From the NCBI GenBank assembly GCA_004292755.1, contig RDXE01000025.1:62001-126000 (forward strand): 64,000 nt of DNA, given 5' to 3'. The DNA is from Alphaproteobacteria bacterium (GTDB taxonomy: Bacteria > Pseudomonadota > Alphaproteobacteria > Elsterales > Elsteraceae). A program made the translations under genes and the position numbers. Shown one piece after another: positions 24,684 to 30,255 of this stretch (position 1 is its first letter; every line of letters begins with the position of its first letter). The notes under the pieces are model-generated. The model saw only the letters and a program-made list of their open reading frames with translations, was not told where the DNA came from and ran no database searches.

Positions 24684-25250
24684 ATGAAGATCAACGCCAA
24701 TGAACTGCGCCAGGGCAACGTCCTGGAGCATAAGGGCAAGCTCTACAGCGTCATCAAGGCGCAACACGTCAGCCCCGGCAAGGGTGGCGCGTTCGTGAGT
24801 TGCGTGCTGCGCGACGTGATCGGCGGCAACAAGCTTGATGAAAAGTTTCGCTCTGGCGAAACAGTTGAGCGGGTTCGGATCGACGAAGTCGATTACCAGT
24901 TCCTGTTTGCCGACGACACCACGGTCACCTTCATGGACGAGGCCACCTACGAACAGCTGGCGGTTGACCGCGAGGTGCTGGGCGATCAAGCCGCCTATCT
25001 GGTGGAAGGGATGAAGGTCATCCTCTCGGTCTATGAAGGGCGCTGTGTCGGCGCTGAACTGCCGCCCACCGTGGTGCTGGAAGTGACGGAGACTGACCCC
25101 GTGGTGAAGGGGCAGACGGCCGCCAACTCCTACAAGCCAGCCACTCTGTCCAACGGCGTGCGCACCCAGGTTCCGCCCTTCATCGAAGCTGGCGAGAAGC
25201 TGGTGATTCGCACCGAAGACGGTAGCTACGTCGAGCGATTCAAGGGCTGA
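24684..25250 (+). CDS. efp: Elongation factor P
   Basis: Relieves ribosome stalling at polyproline stretches by binding between the P and E sites. The 188-residue length is standard. The KOW-like domain I ends in the modification loop HVSPGKGGAF, with Lys33 the predicted site of beta-lysylation by EpmA. The following OB domains contain TVTFMDEATYEQLAV, GMKVILSVYEGRCVGAELP, the signature VKGQTAANSYKPATLSNG and the end IRTEDGSYVERFKG. It is divergent from epmA across 105 bases. The window also encodes a very Pro-rich protein (26129-27487), a plausible client (inference). Confidence 0.98.
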   Translation: MKINANELRQGNVLEHKGKLYSVIKAQHVSPGKGGAFVSCVLRDVIGGNKLDEKFRSGETVERVRIDEVDYQFLFADDTTVTFMDEATYEQLAVDREVLGDQAAYLVEGMKVILSVYEGRCVGAELPPTVVLEVTETDPVVKGQTAANSYKPATLSNGVRTQVPPFIEAGEKLVIRTEDGSYVERFKG

Positions 25251-25254
25251 TCGA

Positions 25255-26049
25255 ATGCGCGTTACCAGCAAGTCTGCGTTGATCAATGTGATGGCGCGGG
25301 CAGCCGAAAAGGCTGGCCGCGGCCTCATCCGCGATTTTGGCGAAGTCGAGCATCTGCAGGTCAGCCGCAAGGGGCCTGCCGACTTTGTCAGTCAGGCAGA
25401 CTTGCGCGCCGAACGCATGCTGCGCGAGGAGTTGGCGAAGGTTCGCCCCGACTTCGGGTTCCTGATGGAAGAATCAGGCGAAAGCCCTGGGCGCGGATCG
25501 GAGCGCTGGATCGTCGACCCGCTGGACGGCACCACCAACTTCCTGCACGGCATCCCCCACTGGGCAGTGTCGATCGCTGCGGAGCGGGATGGCGAGATCA
25601 TTGCCGGGGTGGTGTATGACGCCGCCAAGGACGAATTGTTTTGGGCGGAGCGTGGGGGCGGTGCGTTCGTCAATGACCGGCGCCTGCGCGTCGCAGCCCG
25701 CCGGGATCTTCCCTCCACCCTGATCGGCACTGGGATTCCCTTCCTAGGGGTGGGGGACCACCCGAAGTACCTAGCCTCCCTCGCGCGGGTGATGGCACAA
25801 ACCGCGGGGGTGCGGCGCAATGGCGCAGCTGCGCTGGATCTTTGCTGGGTCGCCGCGGGGCGGTTCGATGGCTTCTGGGAATATGGGTTGAAGCCTTGGG
25901 ATGTGGCGGCCGGCATGCTGATCGTGCGCGAGGCTGGCGGCTTCGTGACCGAGATCGGGGGCGGTGCGAATCCGGTGTTCGGGGGCTCGGTTATCGCTGC
26001 CAACGACCACCTGATGAAGCCGCTCACCGCTCTGATCCTCGGCACCTAA
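25255..26049 (+). CDS. suhB: Inositol monophosphatase family protein (SuhB-like)
   Basis: Mg2+-dependent phosphatase of the inositol monophosphatase family, 264 residues, 4 bases after efp. Motifs: GPADFVSQADLRAE, EESGE (metal-binding Glu), the core WIVDPLDGTTNFLHGIPHWAVSIA, and WDVAAGMLIVREAGG near the C-terminus. In bacteria such proteins dephosphorylate inositol phosphates and some (SuhB) act with NusA in rRNA antitermination; which applies here cannot be told. The efp-IMPase-ExbB-OmpA neighbourhood recurs in Alphaproteobacteria (recall). Confidence 0.92.
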   Translation: MRVTSKSALINVMARAAEKAGRGLIRDFGEVEHLQVSRKGPADFVSQADLRAERMLREELAKVRPDFGFLMEESGESPGRGSERWIVDPLDGTTNFLHGIPHWAVSIAAERDGEIIAGVVYDAAKDELFWAERGGGAFVNDRRLRVAARRDLPSTLIGTGIPFLGVGDHPKYLASLARVMAQTAGVRRNGAAALDLCWVAAGRFDGFWEYGLKPWDVAAGMLIVREAGGFVTEIGGGANPVFGGSVIAANDHLMKPLTALILGT

Positions 26050-26128: not shown

Positions 26129-27487
26129 ATGCTGAAGGGTTTTGTTCATGCCGGCTTTGCCGGTGGTCTGGTTGCTGCCGCGCTGATCAGCGCCGCGGTG
26201 ACACCGGCTGTTGCTCAGACACCACCGCTCGGCCAGCGTGCGGGCGTGATGGTTGATCCGGGCGCTCTACCCGCCGATACGCCCCTTGCCCGGCGCCTGA
26301 CTCCCTCCTTGCCGCCGCCGGGTGTAGCAACAAGCCCAGCGTTGCGTCAGGGATGGACGCGCCCACCGGGCGGTCTTGGTGGTCCGCAAGTGGCTGGAGG
26401 CGGGGTGGACTTCCTGCGCAGTGGCCCACAGGCGGCCCCTGGGGGCATGCCGCAATCGCAGTTCCTGGCAGCGCGCCCGCAAGGCGAGCCGACTGCGCTG
26501 GCTCCAGCAACCTCCTCGGCGGCGGGGCTTGGCGTGCCGAGTGCCAGTACCGCCCCAGTGTCAGCGCCGCGCGCCGATGGCGGGATGGTGGCGCTTGCCC
26601 CGTCTGCTGCGGCGGGGGCAGGCCCGGTGGCCCCGCCACCGGCCAGTCAGCCTGACACCAGTGATCTGCCGCCGGGCTTGATCCGGCAAAGCTTCCCCCG
26701 TCCCGTGTCTGGCGAGCCACCGCCGATGCCGCCGCGCCGCGGATTGGAGGTTCCCTCCGGTCAGCGCACCCTGCCCCCCCCATCCTCCGAACCGCCGCCG
26801 CTGCCGCCTTTGCCGGCCGCACCGGCACCGTTGGCGGTGGCCCAGGCGCCCGCTGCCATCGCACCACCGCAACCAGCGCGGGGCGGTGTGCTAGACCTGC
26901 CACCCTTGCCGCCGATGCCGTCAGCGATGCCGCAAAGTGCAGTGCCAGCACCGCGTCCGGCTGGCCCACCTGCAGCAGCGGCCCCGGCGCCTGCTGCTGC
27001 ACCGCCCGCGCCTGCTGCTGCACCGCCCGCGCCGCGTCCCGCGCCCCAAGCGGCAGCGCCAGCCCCGCAGCCAGCCCCCGCACCGGCTCCTCCGCGTCCA
27101 GCGCCACCGCAAGCCGCAGCACCCCGTCCGGCACCGCCGCCGCCGGTGGTGGCATCGCTGCCGTCCCAGCGGCTGGGCGGTGGCGAAGTGGTGCGCTTGC
27201 CGTTCGCCGCGCAAGACACCAGCGTCTCCCCGGCAGCACAACGTGTGCTGGCCCCGGTGATCGAGCGAATGCGGGCCGACCCCGACCTGCGCGTGATCGT
27301 GCGCGGCTTCGCAGCCGCCCAACCGGATCAGCCCGCGATGGCCCGTCGGCTCGGCCTGTCCCGTGCGATGGAGGTGCGCAACGCGTTCGCAGCCGCTGGC
27401 ATCGCAGCCCAGCGCGCTGTCGTTCAGGCTCCCCCTCCAGTGGAGGGCGATTCCCAGCCAGACCGGGTTGAGATCGAGTTGCCCTGA
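26129..27487 (+). CDS. Proline/alanine-rich exported protein with degenerate OmpA-like C-terminus
   Basis: 452-residue protein with a signal peptide (residues 1-29, ending AVAQT). Residues 40-350 are a low-complexity Pro/Ala/Gln-rich linker with runs such as PAPAAAPPAPAAAPPAP, long enough to span the periplasm. The last 110 residues resemble an OmpA/MotB domain: VVRLPFAAQDTSVSPAAQRVLAPVIERMRADPDL and LSRAMEVRNAFAAAGI. The peptidoglycan-binding Asp of the usual GHTD motif is replaced (RGFAAAQ), whereas the Arg in LSRAMEVR remains, so binding to diaminopimelate may be weakened. It precedes the ExbB-like and OmpA genes on the same strand and may be part of that module. Confidence 0.8.
   Translation: MLKGFVHAGFAGGLVAAALISAAVTPAVAQTPPLGQRAGVMVDPGALPADTPLARRLTPSLPPPGVATSPALRQGWTRPPGGLGGPQVAGGGVDFLRSGPQAAPGGMPQSQFLAARPQGEPTALAPATSSAAGLGVPSASTAPVSAPRADGGMVALAPSAAAGAGPVAPPPASQPDTSDLPPGLIRQSFPRPVSGEPPPMPPRRGLEVPSGQRTLPPPSSEPPPLPPLPAAPAPLAVAQAPAAIAPPQPARGGVLDLPPLPPMPSAMPQSAVPAPRPAGPPAAAAPAPAAAPPAPAAAPPAPRPAPQAAAPAPQPAPAPAPPRPAPPQAAAPRPAPPPPVVASLPSQRLGGGEVVRLPFAAQDTSVSPAAQRVLAPVIERMRADPDLRVIVRGFAAAQPDQPAMARRLGLSRAMEVRNAFAAAGIAAQRAVVQAPPPVEGDSQPDRVEIELP
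26987..27028 (+). repeat. Two tandem 21-bp repeats in the Pro-rich gene
   Basis: Two adjacent identical 21-bp units (26987-27007 and 27008-27028), each encoding a PAPAAAP-type heptad, with the start of a third unit after them. They suggest expansion by slippage of the linker. Confidence 0.85.
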
Positions 27488-27493
27488 TCCAGC

Positions 27494-27527
27494 CACAGAG
27501 GGCTGACAGCGTCTTTAGCCTTCTGTG
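27494..27527 (+). other. Intergenic hairpin between the OmpA-like and ExbB-like genes
   Basis: An 11-bp stem with one G-U pair: CACAGAGGGCT (27494-27504) and AGCCTTCTGTG (27517-27527) around a 12-base loop. No T-run follows, so it is not an intrinsic terminator; it could be an RNA processing or stabilising hairpin that sets different expression of the two flanking genes. Confidence 0.5.
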
Positions 27528-27552
27528 CGTCTGACCTGAGGAGACACCGGCG

Positions 27553-28725
27553 ATGGTCATGGCCTCTTCGCAGCCAAGCACAGTCCGCATGACTGGCACC
27601 GGTCGGTTCCTCGGTCGGGTGGCTTTGTTCCTTGCGGCTGTGATCGCCGGTGTGGTGGTCAGCCATGGGCTGCTGCTCCAGGCGTTTGAGGCCAATCCTT
27701 CGCTCAACGGCATGATCCTTGCGGTCATGCTGCTGGGTGTGGGCTTTATCATTCGCCAGATGCTGGTGCTGAACCCGGAGGTGCGCTGGGTTGAAGCATT
27801 CCAGCGCGGCCAGCCGCCGCCATCGGGGTCGGTACGGCTGCTGGCGCCCATGGTCAGCATGATCGGCAATCGCCAGGGGCGGCTGGCCTTGTCGCCAACA
27901 TCCATGCGCTCGCTGCTGGATTCGATTGGCGCCCGGCTGGATGAAGCGCGCGACATCGCCCGCTACTTGATCGGTTTGCTGATTTTGCTGGGCTTGCTCG
28001 GCACCTTCTTCGGGCTGATGCAAACTGTTGGGTCGGTTGGCGATGTTGTCGGGCGGTTGACCATGGGGGGTGGCGACACCACCGCCGCCTTCGAGGATTT
28101 GAAGCAGGGCCTGGCAACCCCGCTCTCGGCGATGGGCACGGCATTTTCCTCCTCCCTGTTCGGATTGGCGGGGTCGCTGATCCTTGGCTTCCTCGACTTG
28201 CAAGCGGGGCAAGCCCAGAATCGCTTCTATAACGAGTTGGAAGAGTATCTCTCCAGCCAGACCCGGCTTGGCTCGGCCGGACCAGTCGGCGATGGCGAGG
28301 CGTCGGTGCCTGCCTACATCCAGGCCTTGCTGGAGCAAACAGCTGACAGCTTGGAGTCGCTCACCCGCACTATGGGCCGCGGGGAAGAAGGCCGGGCGCA
28401 AACCAACCAGAACCTGAACCAACTGGTCGACCGGCTGGCGCAGTTGAGCGAGTTGATGCGCGGCCAAGCGCAGATGCTGGAGCGGCTGGGCGACGCGCAA
28501 CTGGACATTCGCCCGACCCTGCAGCGGCTGGGGGAGCATCTGTCCCGCAGCAATGCTGGACTGGATGATGGGCTGCGCACCCATTTGCGGAGCATTGATC
28601 TAACGCTCCAGCGTTTGGTGGAAGATCAGGCACGTGGACGCCAAGAGGTGGTCAGTGAGGTACGGGCTGAAATCCGGCTGCTGACCAAGACCATCGTGTC
28701 CATATCGGATCAACAGGACACCTGA
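27553..28725 (+). CDS. MotA/TolQ/ExbB family proton-channel protein with long cytoplasmic tail
   Basis: 390-residue inner-membrane protein. Hydrophobic segments lie near residues 18-40, 55-75, 138-165 and 195-220; the third carries LLGLLGTFFGLMQTVGSV and the fourth the FSSSLFGLAGSLILGFLDL pattern characteristic of TolQ/ExbB/MotA channels. A C-terminal tail of about 150 residues, rich in Gln, Leu and Arg (RLAQLSELMRGQAQMLERLG), is predicted to be helical or coiled-coil and exceeds that of TolQ. It lies 3 bases before a MotB/OmpA-like gene, so the two form a stator-like pair. A GAGGAG sequence precedes ATG 27553. Confidence 0.9.
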   Translation: MVMASSQPSTVRMTGTGRFLGRVALFLAAVIAGVVVSHGLLLQAFEANPSLNGMILAVMLLGVGFIIRQMLVLNPEVRWVEAFQRGQPPPSGSVRLLAPMVSMIGNRQGRLALSPTSMRSLLDSIGARLDEARDIARYLIGLLILLGLLGTFFGLMQTVGSVGDVVGRLTMGGGDTTAAFEDLKQGLATPLSAMGTAFSSSLFGLAGSLILGFLDLQAGQAQNRFYNELEEYLSSQTRLGSAGPVGDGEASVPAYIQALLEQTADSLESLTRTMGRGEEGRAQTNQNLNQLVDRLAQLSELMRGQAQMLERLGDAQLDIRPTLQRLGEHLSRSNAGLDDGLRTHLRSIDLTLQRLVEDQARGRQEVVSEVRAEIRLLTKTIVSISDQQDT

Positions 28726-28728
28726 TCT

Positions 28729-30255
28729 ATGCCGCGCGCCAGTCGCCGTCGGGGTGATGTCGAATTCTGGCCGGGATTTGTGGACGCGCTGGCAACGCTT
28801 CTGATCGTCATCATCTTTCTTGTGCTGGTGTTTGTGCTGGCGCAATTCTTTTTGACACAAGCGATCACCCGCAAGGACGAAACGCTGGACCGCCTGACGG
28901 CACAGATCAGCCAACTGGGCGATCTGTTGGCGTTGGAACGCCAAAGCGTCGCCGACCTGCGCCTGCAACTGGGTGAAACCCAGGCGGAGGTGTCACAGGC
29001 CCGCCAACAGCGCGAGGCGCAGAACCGCCAGATCGCCCTGCTGACGCTGGAACGCGACGGCCTTGCCACACGGCTGGGTGAGGCGGAGCGGCGCGGCGGC
29101 GACTTGCAGTCGCGCCTCGATCTTGCGTTGCGCGCACAAGACAGCGCGGAACGGCAGCTGGCCGACGCCGCCCGGGCGACCGACGCCGACCAAGCGCGCA
29201 TCCGCGCCTTGCTGGCTGAGCGGGAACAGGTCCAGCGGGATATCGCGGCGCTGCGCACGGTGCGCGCCGATTTGGAACGCGAGGTTGCGAAGCTGGCGGG
29301 TGACGTCCGCGCTCGCGATGCCAGCTTGGCTGAGCGGGATCAACGGTTGGCTGAGCGGGATCAACGCCTGACGGAGGCCGCGCAAGCCCGCGCGGACTTG
29401 GAGCAACGTCTGGCCAGCCAGGCAGGCACCCTGGATGCGACCACCAGAGATCTTGGCGCCGTGCGCGACCGAGCGGCTGCGCTGGAAGCGCGGCTCGCGA
29501 CCGAGGTGGAGCGCACGCTTCTGGCGCAACGGCAAATCGCCGAGCGGGAGGTGCGGCTGGAGGAATTGCTTGCTGCCAGCGGTGCGCTCACGCGCGATCT
29601 CACGGCCGCCCAGCGACTGAGCGAGGCCCAGCGCGATGAAATCGCCCTTCTGGCCCGCCAGTTGGATGAGGTGCGCGCGCAGTTGGTGCGTCTGAACGCA
29701 GCGCTGGAGCAGGCCGAGGCCGAGGCGCGCGACAAGGGTGTGCAAATCATCAATCTGGGGCAACGCCTCAATGCCGCCCTCGCCGGGCGGGTGGAGGAAT
29801 TGGCCCGCTATCGCTCGGAGTTCTTTGGGCGGTTGCGCCAGTTGCTGGGGGACCGCGACGATGTCCGCGTGGTGGGTGATCGGTTCGTGTTCCAATCCGA
29901 AGTGTTGTTCCCCACTGGCTCCGCCGAATTGCGCGGCGAGGGGCGCGAGCAGGTGCTGCGGCTGGCGGCCACTATCCGAGAGTTGATCGACGTGATGCCA
30001 ACCGACCTGCCATGGATTCTCCGCGTCGACGGTCACACTGACCGCGCCCCTATTCGCTCGGGTCAGTTCCGCTCCAACTGGGAATTGTCGGCTGCGCGGG
30101 CAATCACTGTGGTGCGCACGCTGATCGAACAGGGTATCCCGCCCGATCGTGTGGCCGCTGCTGGGTTTGGCGAGTTCCAGCCGCTGGGACCCGACGATGA
30201 TCCCGACGCGCGCGCGCGCAACCGCCGCATCGAACTGAAGCTGACGGAACGCTGA
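28729..30255 (+). CDS. Coiled-coil OmpA/MotB-like peptidoglycan-binding protein
   Basis: 508-residue partner of the ExbB-like channel. A short basic N-terminus leads to one membrane segment (WPGFVDALATLLIVIIFLVL, residues 14-33) with Asp19 at the position of the proton-carrying Asp of MotB and TolR. Residues 55-370 form a long, highly charged coiled coil (repeated ERDQRLAERDQRL at about 200). The C-terminus is a complete OmpA domain: FQSEVLFPTGSAELRGEG, LRVDGHTDRAPI (peptidoglycan-binding Asp) and NWELSAARAITVVRTLIEQGI (Arg), then RNRRIELKL. This is the layout of a proton-driven stator that anchors to peptidoglycan, but the target of the force is unknown. Confidence 0.92.
   Translation: MPRASRRRGDVEFWPGFVDALATLLIVIIFLVLVFVLAQFFLTQAITRKDETLDRLTAQISQLGDLLALERQSVADLRLQLGETQAEVSQARQQREAQNRQIALLTLERDGLATRLGEAERRGGDLQSRLDLALRAQDSAERQLADAARATDADQARIRALLAEREQVQRDIAALRTVRADLEREVAKLAGDVRARDASLAERDQRLAERDQRLTEAAQARADLEQRLASQAGTLDATTRDLGAVRDRAAALEARLATEVERTLLAQRQIAEREVRLEELLAASGALTRDLTAAQRLSEAQRDEIALLARQLDEVRAQLVRLNAALEQAEAEARDKGVQIINLGQRLNAALAGRVEELARYRSEFFGRLRQLLGDRDDVRVVGDRFVFQSEVLFPTGSAELRGEGREQVLRLAATIRELIDVMPTDLPWILRVDGHTDRAPIRSGQFRSNWELSAARAITVVRTLIEQGIPPDRVAAAGFGEFQPLGPDDDPDARARNRRIELKLTER
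29326..29367 (+). repeat. Tandem 21-bp repeat in the coiled-coil gene
   Basis: Two adjacent 21-bp units (29326-29346 and 29347-29367, differing only at the last base) encode the heptads LAERDQR and LAERDQR-like in the coiled coil, consistent with growth of the coil by heptad duplication. Confidence 0.85.

Follow-up and report, generated by a model that had tools for sequence, protein, structure and literature searches.

Relationship to Known Ion-Driven Motors

The closest described counterparts of the locus reported here, which occupies positions 26129–30255 of a 64,000-nucleotide stretch of DNA from an alphaproteobacterium of the Elsteraceae (contig RDXE01000025.1, positions 62,001–126,000; the window), are the channel-partner pairs TolQ-TolR and ExbB-ExbD, MotA-MotB and PomA-PomB, and ZorA-ZorB of the Zorya phage-defense system. 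TolQ and ExbB have three membrane helices, and TolR and ExbD carry no peptidoglycan-binding OmpA domain. MotA and PomA are four-helix channels, and each of their partners has a short plug and linker as well as an OmpA domain. The type I Zorya structures (Protein Data Bank [PDB] 8VVN; PMC11890865), on which our comparison with ZorAB is based, reveal a two-gene A-B core with an Asp where the membrane helix of B begins, a Ser/Thr ring, an OmpA peptidoglycan-binding domain, and a helical A tail. In the set used for a study of MotAB evolution, the non-flagellar B subunits are reported to show no OmpA homology (PMC12505986).

The window locus encodes a secreted Pro-rich protein (ProOmpA), followed by a channel subunit (ChanA) and a single-pass partner (StatB); an open reading frame (ORF) check finds all three genes at the positions that a sequence-only reading of the DNA had assigned to them. 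ChanA and StatB resemble TolQ-TolR/ExbB-ExbD in the channel core and in the pore Thr/Ser positions, MotA-MotB/PomA-PomB in the four-helix channel (by prediction for ChanA) and the MotB-like OmpA domain of StatB, and ZorA-ZorB in each of the features named above. We put at about 60% the probability that they form an ion-driven, wall-anchored motor with a housekeeping role in the envelope or wall, rather than a role in phage defense. More tentatively, the pair may be an extra core envelope motor of Alphaproteobacteria, besides Tol, Ton, and the flagellar stator, in which the register of a shaft is kept while its length varies more than threefold, so that torque, or a conformational signal sensitive to phase, is relayed across some 20–80 nm.

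The distinction from TolQR and MotAB drawn by the sequence-only reading holds in the present comparison. In contrast to TolQR and ExbBD, ChanA is predicted to have four membrane helices, StatB combines an OmpA domain with a long coil, and the module has no TolA, TonB, or Pal gene, its neighbors being other than tolAB-pal. The window ChanA scores narrowly below the cut-off of the Pfam MotA_ExbB profile (16.2 versus 22.9 bits) and lies in an efp-suhB context; unlike MotAB and PomAB, the pair has no flagellar neighbors, and where MotB and PomB have a short plug and linker, StatB has a long coil locked in register. The same genome encodes a separate TolQ (C2:61248) and, elsewhere, a separate MotA-like gene. 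The StatB family is an exception to the statement that non-flagellar B subunits are without OmpA homology (PMC12505986). The features of the pair are as follows.

27538–27543, + strand: GAGGAG, a ribosome-binding-like site upstream of the ChanA ATG at 27553 (sequence)
27553–28725, + strand: ChanA, channel of the MotA/TolQ/ExbB/ZorA superfamily, 390 amino acids (aa) (ORF, profiles, predicted structure, Foldseek)
27991–28017, + strand: ChanA residues 147–155, GLLGTFFGL, in transmembrane (TM) helix 3, including T151, which is invariant and corresponds to the pore Thr of TolQ/ExbB (alignment)
28312–28719, + strand: ChanA cytoplasmic helical tail, residues 254–389, length not quantized (AlphaFold, length statistics)
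28729–30255, + strand: StatB, single-pass partner, 508 aa, NCBIfam NF006543 (PRK09039) (ORF, profile, predicted structure)
28783–28785, + strand: Asp19 codon; this residue presumably binds the ion and opens the TM helix (residues 19–45) (conservation, AlphaFold)
28870–29811, + strand: StatB periplasmic coiled coil, residues 48–361, hydrophobic period 3.50, constant register (periodicity analysis)
29326–29366, + strand: exact 21-bp tandem duplication inside the coil, a one-heptad unit, the second copy without its last base (sequence)
29812–29826, + strand: RSEFF motif, residues 362–366, conserved, marking the coil end 343 residues (49 × 7) from Asp19 (orthologues)
29881–30249, + strand: peptidoglycan-binding, OmpA-like domain of StatB, in which D438 and R457 are invariant (Pfam, conservation, fold match)

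The Channel Subunit and Its Wall-Binding Partner

Placement of ChanA is barely possible from the single window sequence and becomes clear with 53 orthologues, because MotA_ExbB is matched by 45 of these (E ≤ 0.01) and the PADLOC ZorA models by all 53, the latter over the membrane core. An AlphaFold2 model based on the orthologue alignment (predicted local distance difference test [pLDDT] 86) has four membrane-length helices (residues 17–45, 49–84, 115–168, and 176–241) followed by the tail (254–389), and its best Foldseek matches in the PDB are ExbB (5SV0), ZorA (8VVN), and TolQ (9DDM), all with probability 1.00 and E values of only 1e-3 to 5e-3. A profile search against PDB sequences retrieved coiled coils only, with no known channel recovered. 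The invariant Thr151 and Ser201 align, in the core alignment, with pore Thr positions of E. coli TolQ/ExbB (the TM4 position being Ser/Thr). As judged from sequence, membership of ChanA in the MotA/TolQ/ExbB/ZorA superfamily of ion-driven motors is well supported. The long helical tail described in the sequence-only reading is found in the window and in many lineages (∼165 residues), but it measures only 75–104 residues in others, and the 268-aa channel of one genome (G352) has almost no tail.

StatB belongs to NCBIfam NF006543/PRK09039, which it matches with 440 bits (cut-off 305). This family (NF006543 and sister models) bears the name “peptidoglycan -binding protein” with no function attached; the module is thus uncharacterized, as had been suggested, with respect to function, although its partner protein already belonged to a named family. 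The protein has a single TM segment (residues 11–48), and Asp19, which is ∼97% conserved among 66 StatB orthologues, stands where the AlphaFold TM helix begins, in line with its earlier assignment as a proton site in the membrane. The C-terminal region matches Pfam OmpA (residues 393–499, E 1.3e-15), and a fold search returns MotB, MotS, and PomB as the best matches (best E 6e-12). Asp438 and Arg457, the residues expected to bind peptidoglycan, are invariant in the 66 orthologues, which suggests that StatB binds the cell wall. Residues 48–361 form the very long coil that had been noted from the translation.

The StatB start codon lies only 3 bases past the ChanA stop codon, and a comparison of 61 orthologous loci, of the kind proposed in the sequence-only reading, finds the channel gene directly 5′ of the partner gene in 60. 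The pair is therefore real, its adjacency being far above chance, and the superfamily matches, this gene order, and the conserved Asp19 together uphold its description as a stator-type pair.

Heptad Quantization of the StatB Coil

The residues separating the membrane Asp from the conserved RSEFF motif were counted as coil length, with the coil itself left unaligned. In a first set of 88 orthologues, with lengths of 154–463 residues, the remainder modulo 7 is 0 in 62 sequences, 4 in 13, 3 in 12, and 1 in one, and is never 2, 5, or 6. Multiples of seven make up 26 of the 42 distinct lengths (p 1.7e-12); when moduli 3 to 15 were tried, only 14 came close to 7, and 30 of 31 pairwise differences between relatives of unequal length are 0, 3, or 4 mod 7. 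The heptad prediction was fixed in writing before 60 further genomes were fetched. Seven StatB sequences from this held-out set, in which the membrane motif is variable, were left out, and the 52 measurable sequences, with lengths up to 550, have remainders of 0 (44), 4 (six), 3 (one), and 1 (one). Both sets together comprise 140 orthologues spanning 154–550 residues (0, 106; 4, 19; 3, 13; 1, two; 2, 5, and 6, none). Remainders of 3 and 4 are those that stutter or hendecad steps yield and are compatible with a coiled coil. Two controls, the ChanA tail (36 distinct lengths) and the Pro-rich linker of ProOmpA (28 distinct lengths), are flat mod 7 and show no quantization, and coil length correlates only weakly with channel tail length across orthologues (rho 0.30, p 0.06).

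The best hydrophobic period is 3.5 in 88 of 88 orthologues, the heptad phase of the window StatB stays within about 45 degrees across 290 residues, and proline occurs once in 16,617 coil residues of the first set and once in 11,927 of the held-out set (2 in 28,544). The 7-residue steps and constant phase point to parallel dimerization of StatB, a parallel coil being preferred because an antiparallel hairpin would favor steps of 14. We infer from this a register-locked periplasmic shaft between the ion site and the cell wall. Since a single coil would join the Asp pair to the OmpA dimer, their relative orientation would be preserved while the length varies, as a torque-transmitting shaft, or a rigid anchor resisting torque, would need. 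The heptad rule predicts that coil insertions of 7 residues are tolerated and those of 3 or 5 are not, and it bears on how motors are coupled to peptidoglycan.

The exact 21-bp tandem duplication in the window coil represents a likely source of heptad steps. Its presence also raises the question of whether quantization is a mutational footprint only, produced by slippage of 21-bp near-repeats with no selection on register. We consider this improbable: the ChanA tail, which is helical too, is not quantized, the non-zero classes are nearly all the coiled-coil-compatible 3 and 4, not one of the 140 lengths is 2, 5, or 6 mod 7, and the steps persist over the whole range from 154 to 550 residues.

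Proposed Mechanism and Alternatives

We propose that ChanA and StatB would assemble, with a 5:2 stoichiometry by homology, into an ion-driven member of the MotAB/ZorAB/ExbBD motor superfamily. Ion passage between Asp19 in a StatB dimer and the ring formed by Thr151 and Ser201 in a ChanA pentamer would make one subunit rotate or step against the other. Beyond the membrane, both StatB helices would extend into a single coiled coil locked in register. This rigid shaft would end in a peptidoglycan-binding OmpA dimer, and through it torque or tension from the inner membrane may be applied to, or held by, the cell wall; ProOmpA, where present, would be a periplasmic partner of the wall end. We infer the stoichiometry, rotation, ion flow, ion type, parallel coil, and role in this scheme. 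Synteny, breadth of distribution, and the absence of effectors suggest a role in envelope maintenance, probably in envelope or wall mechanics during growth; lipid transport, another function raised in the sequence-only reading, found no support.

ZorA1 (E 1.2e-11) and ZorB3 (E 5e-29) are, by the PADLOC models, the named defense families nearest to the window pair, which shares its two-gene core with Zorya, and phage defense with effectors lost or encoded elsewhere has to be weighed. We regard it as very improbable. A PADLOC scan of the eight genes neighboring the pair finds no ZorC or ZorD, consistent with the ZorAB resemblance without effectors reported earlier, whereas Zorya I loci taken as controls within the phylum have the order A-B-C-D and encode EH_Signature and SNF2+Mrr proteins (e.g., locus L184). 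Against the curated models the window ChanA reaches 19.2 bits for antiphage_ZorA_4 (cut-off 500) and 16.6 bits for antiphage_ZorA_2 (cut-off 100). The control ZorA1 proteins have 628–708 aa (∼680) and the ZorB proteins ∼233 aa, placing the long rod of Zorya in the cytoplasm, whereas here it is periplasmic (StatB 508 aa) and the ChanA tail (∼165 residues) is much shorter than that of ZorA1. In a FastTree tree of the core alignment, whose ∼120 columns leave deep branches weak, ZorA1 forms one clade (0.994) and TolQ/ExbB another (0.992), both apart from the ChanA family. In an alphaproteobacterial genome (G343) that carries both, ZorA1 and the ChanA orthologue lie on separate contigs, and the ChanA/StatB locus is a conserved core locus, not a defense locus, in most genomes of the class. 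Membership in Zorya is thus rejected on the missing ZorC/ZorD, the ZorA scores far under cut-off, the short tail, and the separate clade. Loose thresholds on PADLOC ZorA1/ZorB3 would call false Zorya systems across Alphaproteobacteria, and defense annotation from homology alone can mislabel the pair.

Two other readings keep an ion-driven pair and change what it does. StatB motion might be cyclic and pull on the wall or on ProOmpA, stabilizing the outer membrane beside or in place of Tol-Pal; such a Tol-like energizer would fit the pore residues, which match those of TolQ, and the conserved gene for an OmpA-like periplasmic partner that 38 of the 61 loci contain. However, the genome carries its own TolQ, the module has no TolA-like or TolB-like gene, the peptidoglycan-binding OmpA domain of StatB sets it apart from TolR and ExbD, and the Pro-rich gene is absent from many lineages, and we see this role as possible but somewhat unlikely. 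It is unlikely, too, that the output is cytoplasmic, with StatB as a fixed stator and a rotating ChanA tail acting on a cytoplasmic partner in a MotA-FliG-like manner, as proposed for the ZorA tail. An intact anchor site in StatB and the ∼165-residue helical tail of many lineages are what that arrangement would need, but the tail shrinks to 75–104 residues in several lineages and almost vanishes in G352, its length is unconstrained and unquantized while the constrained part is the periplasmic rod, and the conserved genes nearby are core efp and suhB only, with no other cytoplasmic partner.

Some observations speak against the wall-anchored motor that we favor. The AlphaFold monomer of StatB breaks the coil helix at residues 253–259 (pLDDT < 50), which is readable as a hairpin; because the heptad phase is unaltered there, we do not trust this break, and a hairpin coil is not favored. 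A straight shaft would be 47 nm long in the window and up to about 79–80 nm elsewhere (0.1485 nm per residue), and a normal periplasm is narrower than 47–79 nm; the rod must therefore be tilted, bent, or aligned with the wall. The heptad steps could stem partly from the ease of 21-bp duplication and not from selection. The module is absent from some lineages, and a Mantel test for vertical inheritance is powerless, its positive control, elongation factor P (EF-P) versus SuhB, giving r 0.03.

ProOmpA, Gene Order, and Distribution

The remaining gene of the locus and its syntenic neighbors, which are outside the proposed machine, are the following.

26129–27487, + strand: ProOmpA, secreted Pro-rich protein, 452 aa (ORF, Pfam match, orthologue comparison)
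27203–27427, + strand: ProOmpA OmpA-like C-terminal domain, residues 359–433, Arg retained and Asp lost (Pfam)
25255–26049, + strand: SuhB-like inositol monophosphatase (profile, synteny in 47/61 loci)
24684–25250, + strand: EF-P (identified by sequence, synteny in 44/61 loci)

In ProOmpA, a hydrophobic segment at the N terminus is followed by a Pro-rich middle region and a C-terminal OmpA domain (Pfam, E 3.8e-7). As the sequence-only reading had it, this second OmpA domain is degenerate: the peptidoglycan-site Arg, surrounded by the family-specific RRLSLSRALAVR motif, is kept in 39 of 39 proteins, the window protein included, but the Asp position holds Asp in just six of the 39 and Ala in the window protein. 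ProOmpA therefore lacks the full diaminopimelate-binding Asp and Arg pair of peptidoglycan-binding OmpA domains. Inclusion of the Pro-rich gene in the module is borne out in part, an OmpA-like gene lying directly upstream of the channel gene in 38 of 61 loci, but it is not universal; in S. meliloti, whose orthologues are LZK74_31000 and LZK74_30995, the order is inositol monophosphatase, channel, partner, with no Pro-rich gene beside the pair.

The earlier description of the neighbors as core genes is confirmed by the usual order, efp-suhB followed by the pair; some of the missing SuhB and EF-P neighbors among the 61 loci are due to contig ends. EF-P, a polyproline translation factor, is encoded two genes upstream of ProOmpA, which has eight PPP triplets in the window. 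The orthologue median is one triplet, and polyproline in ProOmpA is therefore no general explanation of the linkage, which may be chance. An ArnT-like gene begins one base after StatB, and its adjacency to the pair is not conserved among orthologous loci.

Of 381 good alphaproteobacterial genomes, 259 contain ChanA by profile search, usually as a single copy. In a phylum-wide sample, strong matches fall nearly all within Alphaproteobacteria, and the few in other classes (L152–L157) belong to pairs without EF-P and SuhB nearby. A predicted wall-gripping motor is thus present in about two-thirds of the sampled Alphaproteobacteria, including S. meliloti, seemingly without an assigned function. 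A literature search, with preprints and most subscription journals outside its reach, found no functional study of the pair, which we provisionally take to be unstudied. The partner family name was already known (NCBI); the present analysis adds the heptad rule, the synteny of the three genes, and the distinction of the pair from Zorya, Tol, and Mot. A match to the Rgs proteins of polar growth in S. meliloti was considered and rejected, since the listed Rgs proteins are other loci, set apart by description, with no ExbB-like or OmpA-like member described among them (PMC7327166).

Divergent Copies and Other Channel-Partner Pairs

Among the StatB orthologues with the longest coils, those of L123 and L264, with others, have about 550–560 coil residues, which would give rods near 80 nm, more than the usual width of a periplasm. 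Two genomes (G239 and G138; loci L115 and L116) have a second StatB-like copy without a recognizable ChanA alongside. One genome of a family mostly without the module encodes a divergent 573-aa channel beside EF-P (L159), which suggests remnant synteny.

At L008 (5887–8417) and other Fibrobacter loci, a 621-aa channel resembling ZorA precedes a 220-aa MotB-like partner, and no ZorC/ZorD-sized genes come directly after the partner in these orphan pairs. Locus L162 has the order DUF3348, a DUF802 channel with a long cytoplasmic coil, and an OmpA partner, followed by a GntR-type regulator and without Zorya effectors; L163 and L171 contain similar channel-partner pairs. The L162-type pairs resemble ChanA/StatB in their A-B arrangement, common channel core, OmpA partner, and lack of adjacent ZorC/ZorD, but differ in that the channel tail holds the long coil (675–722 aa), the partner is short (214–224 aa), and the accessory gene is a different one.

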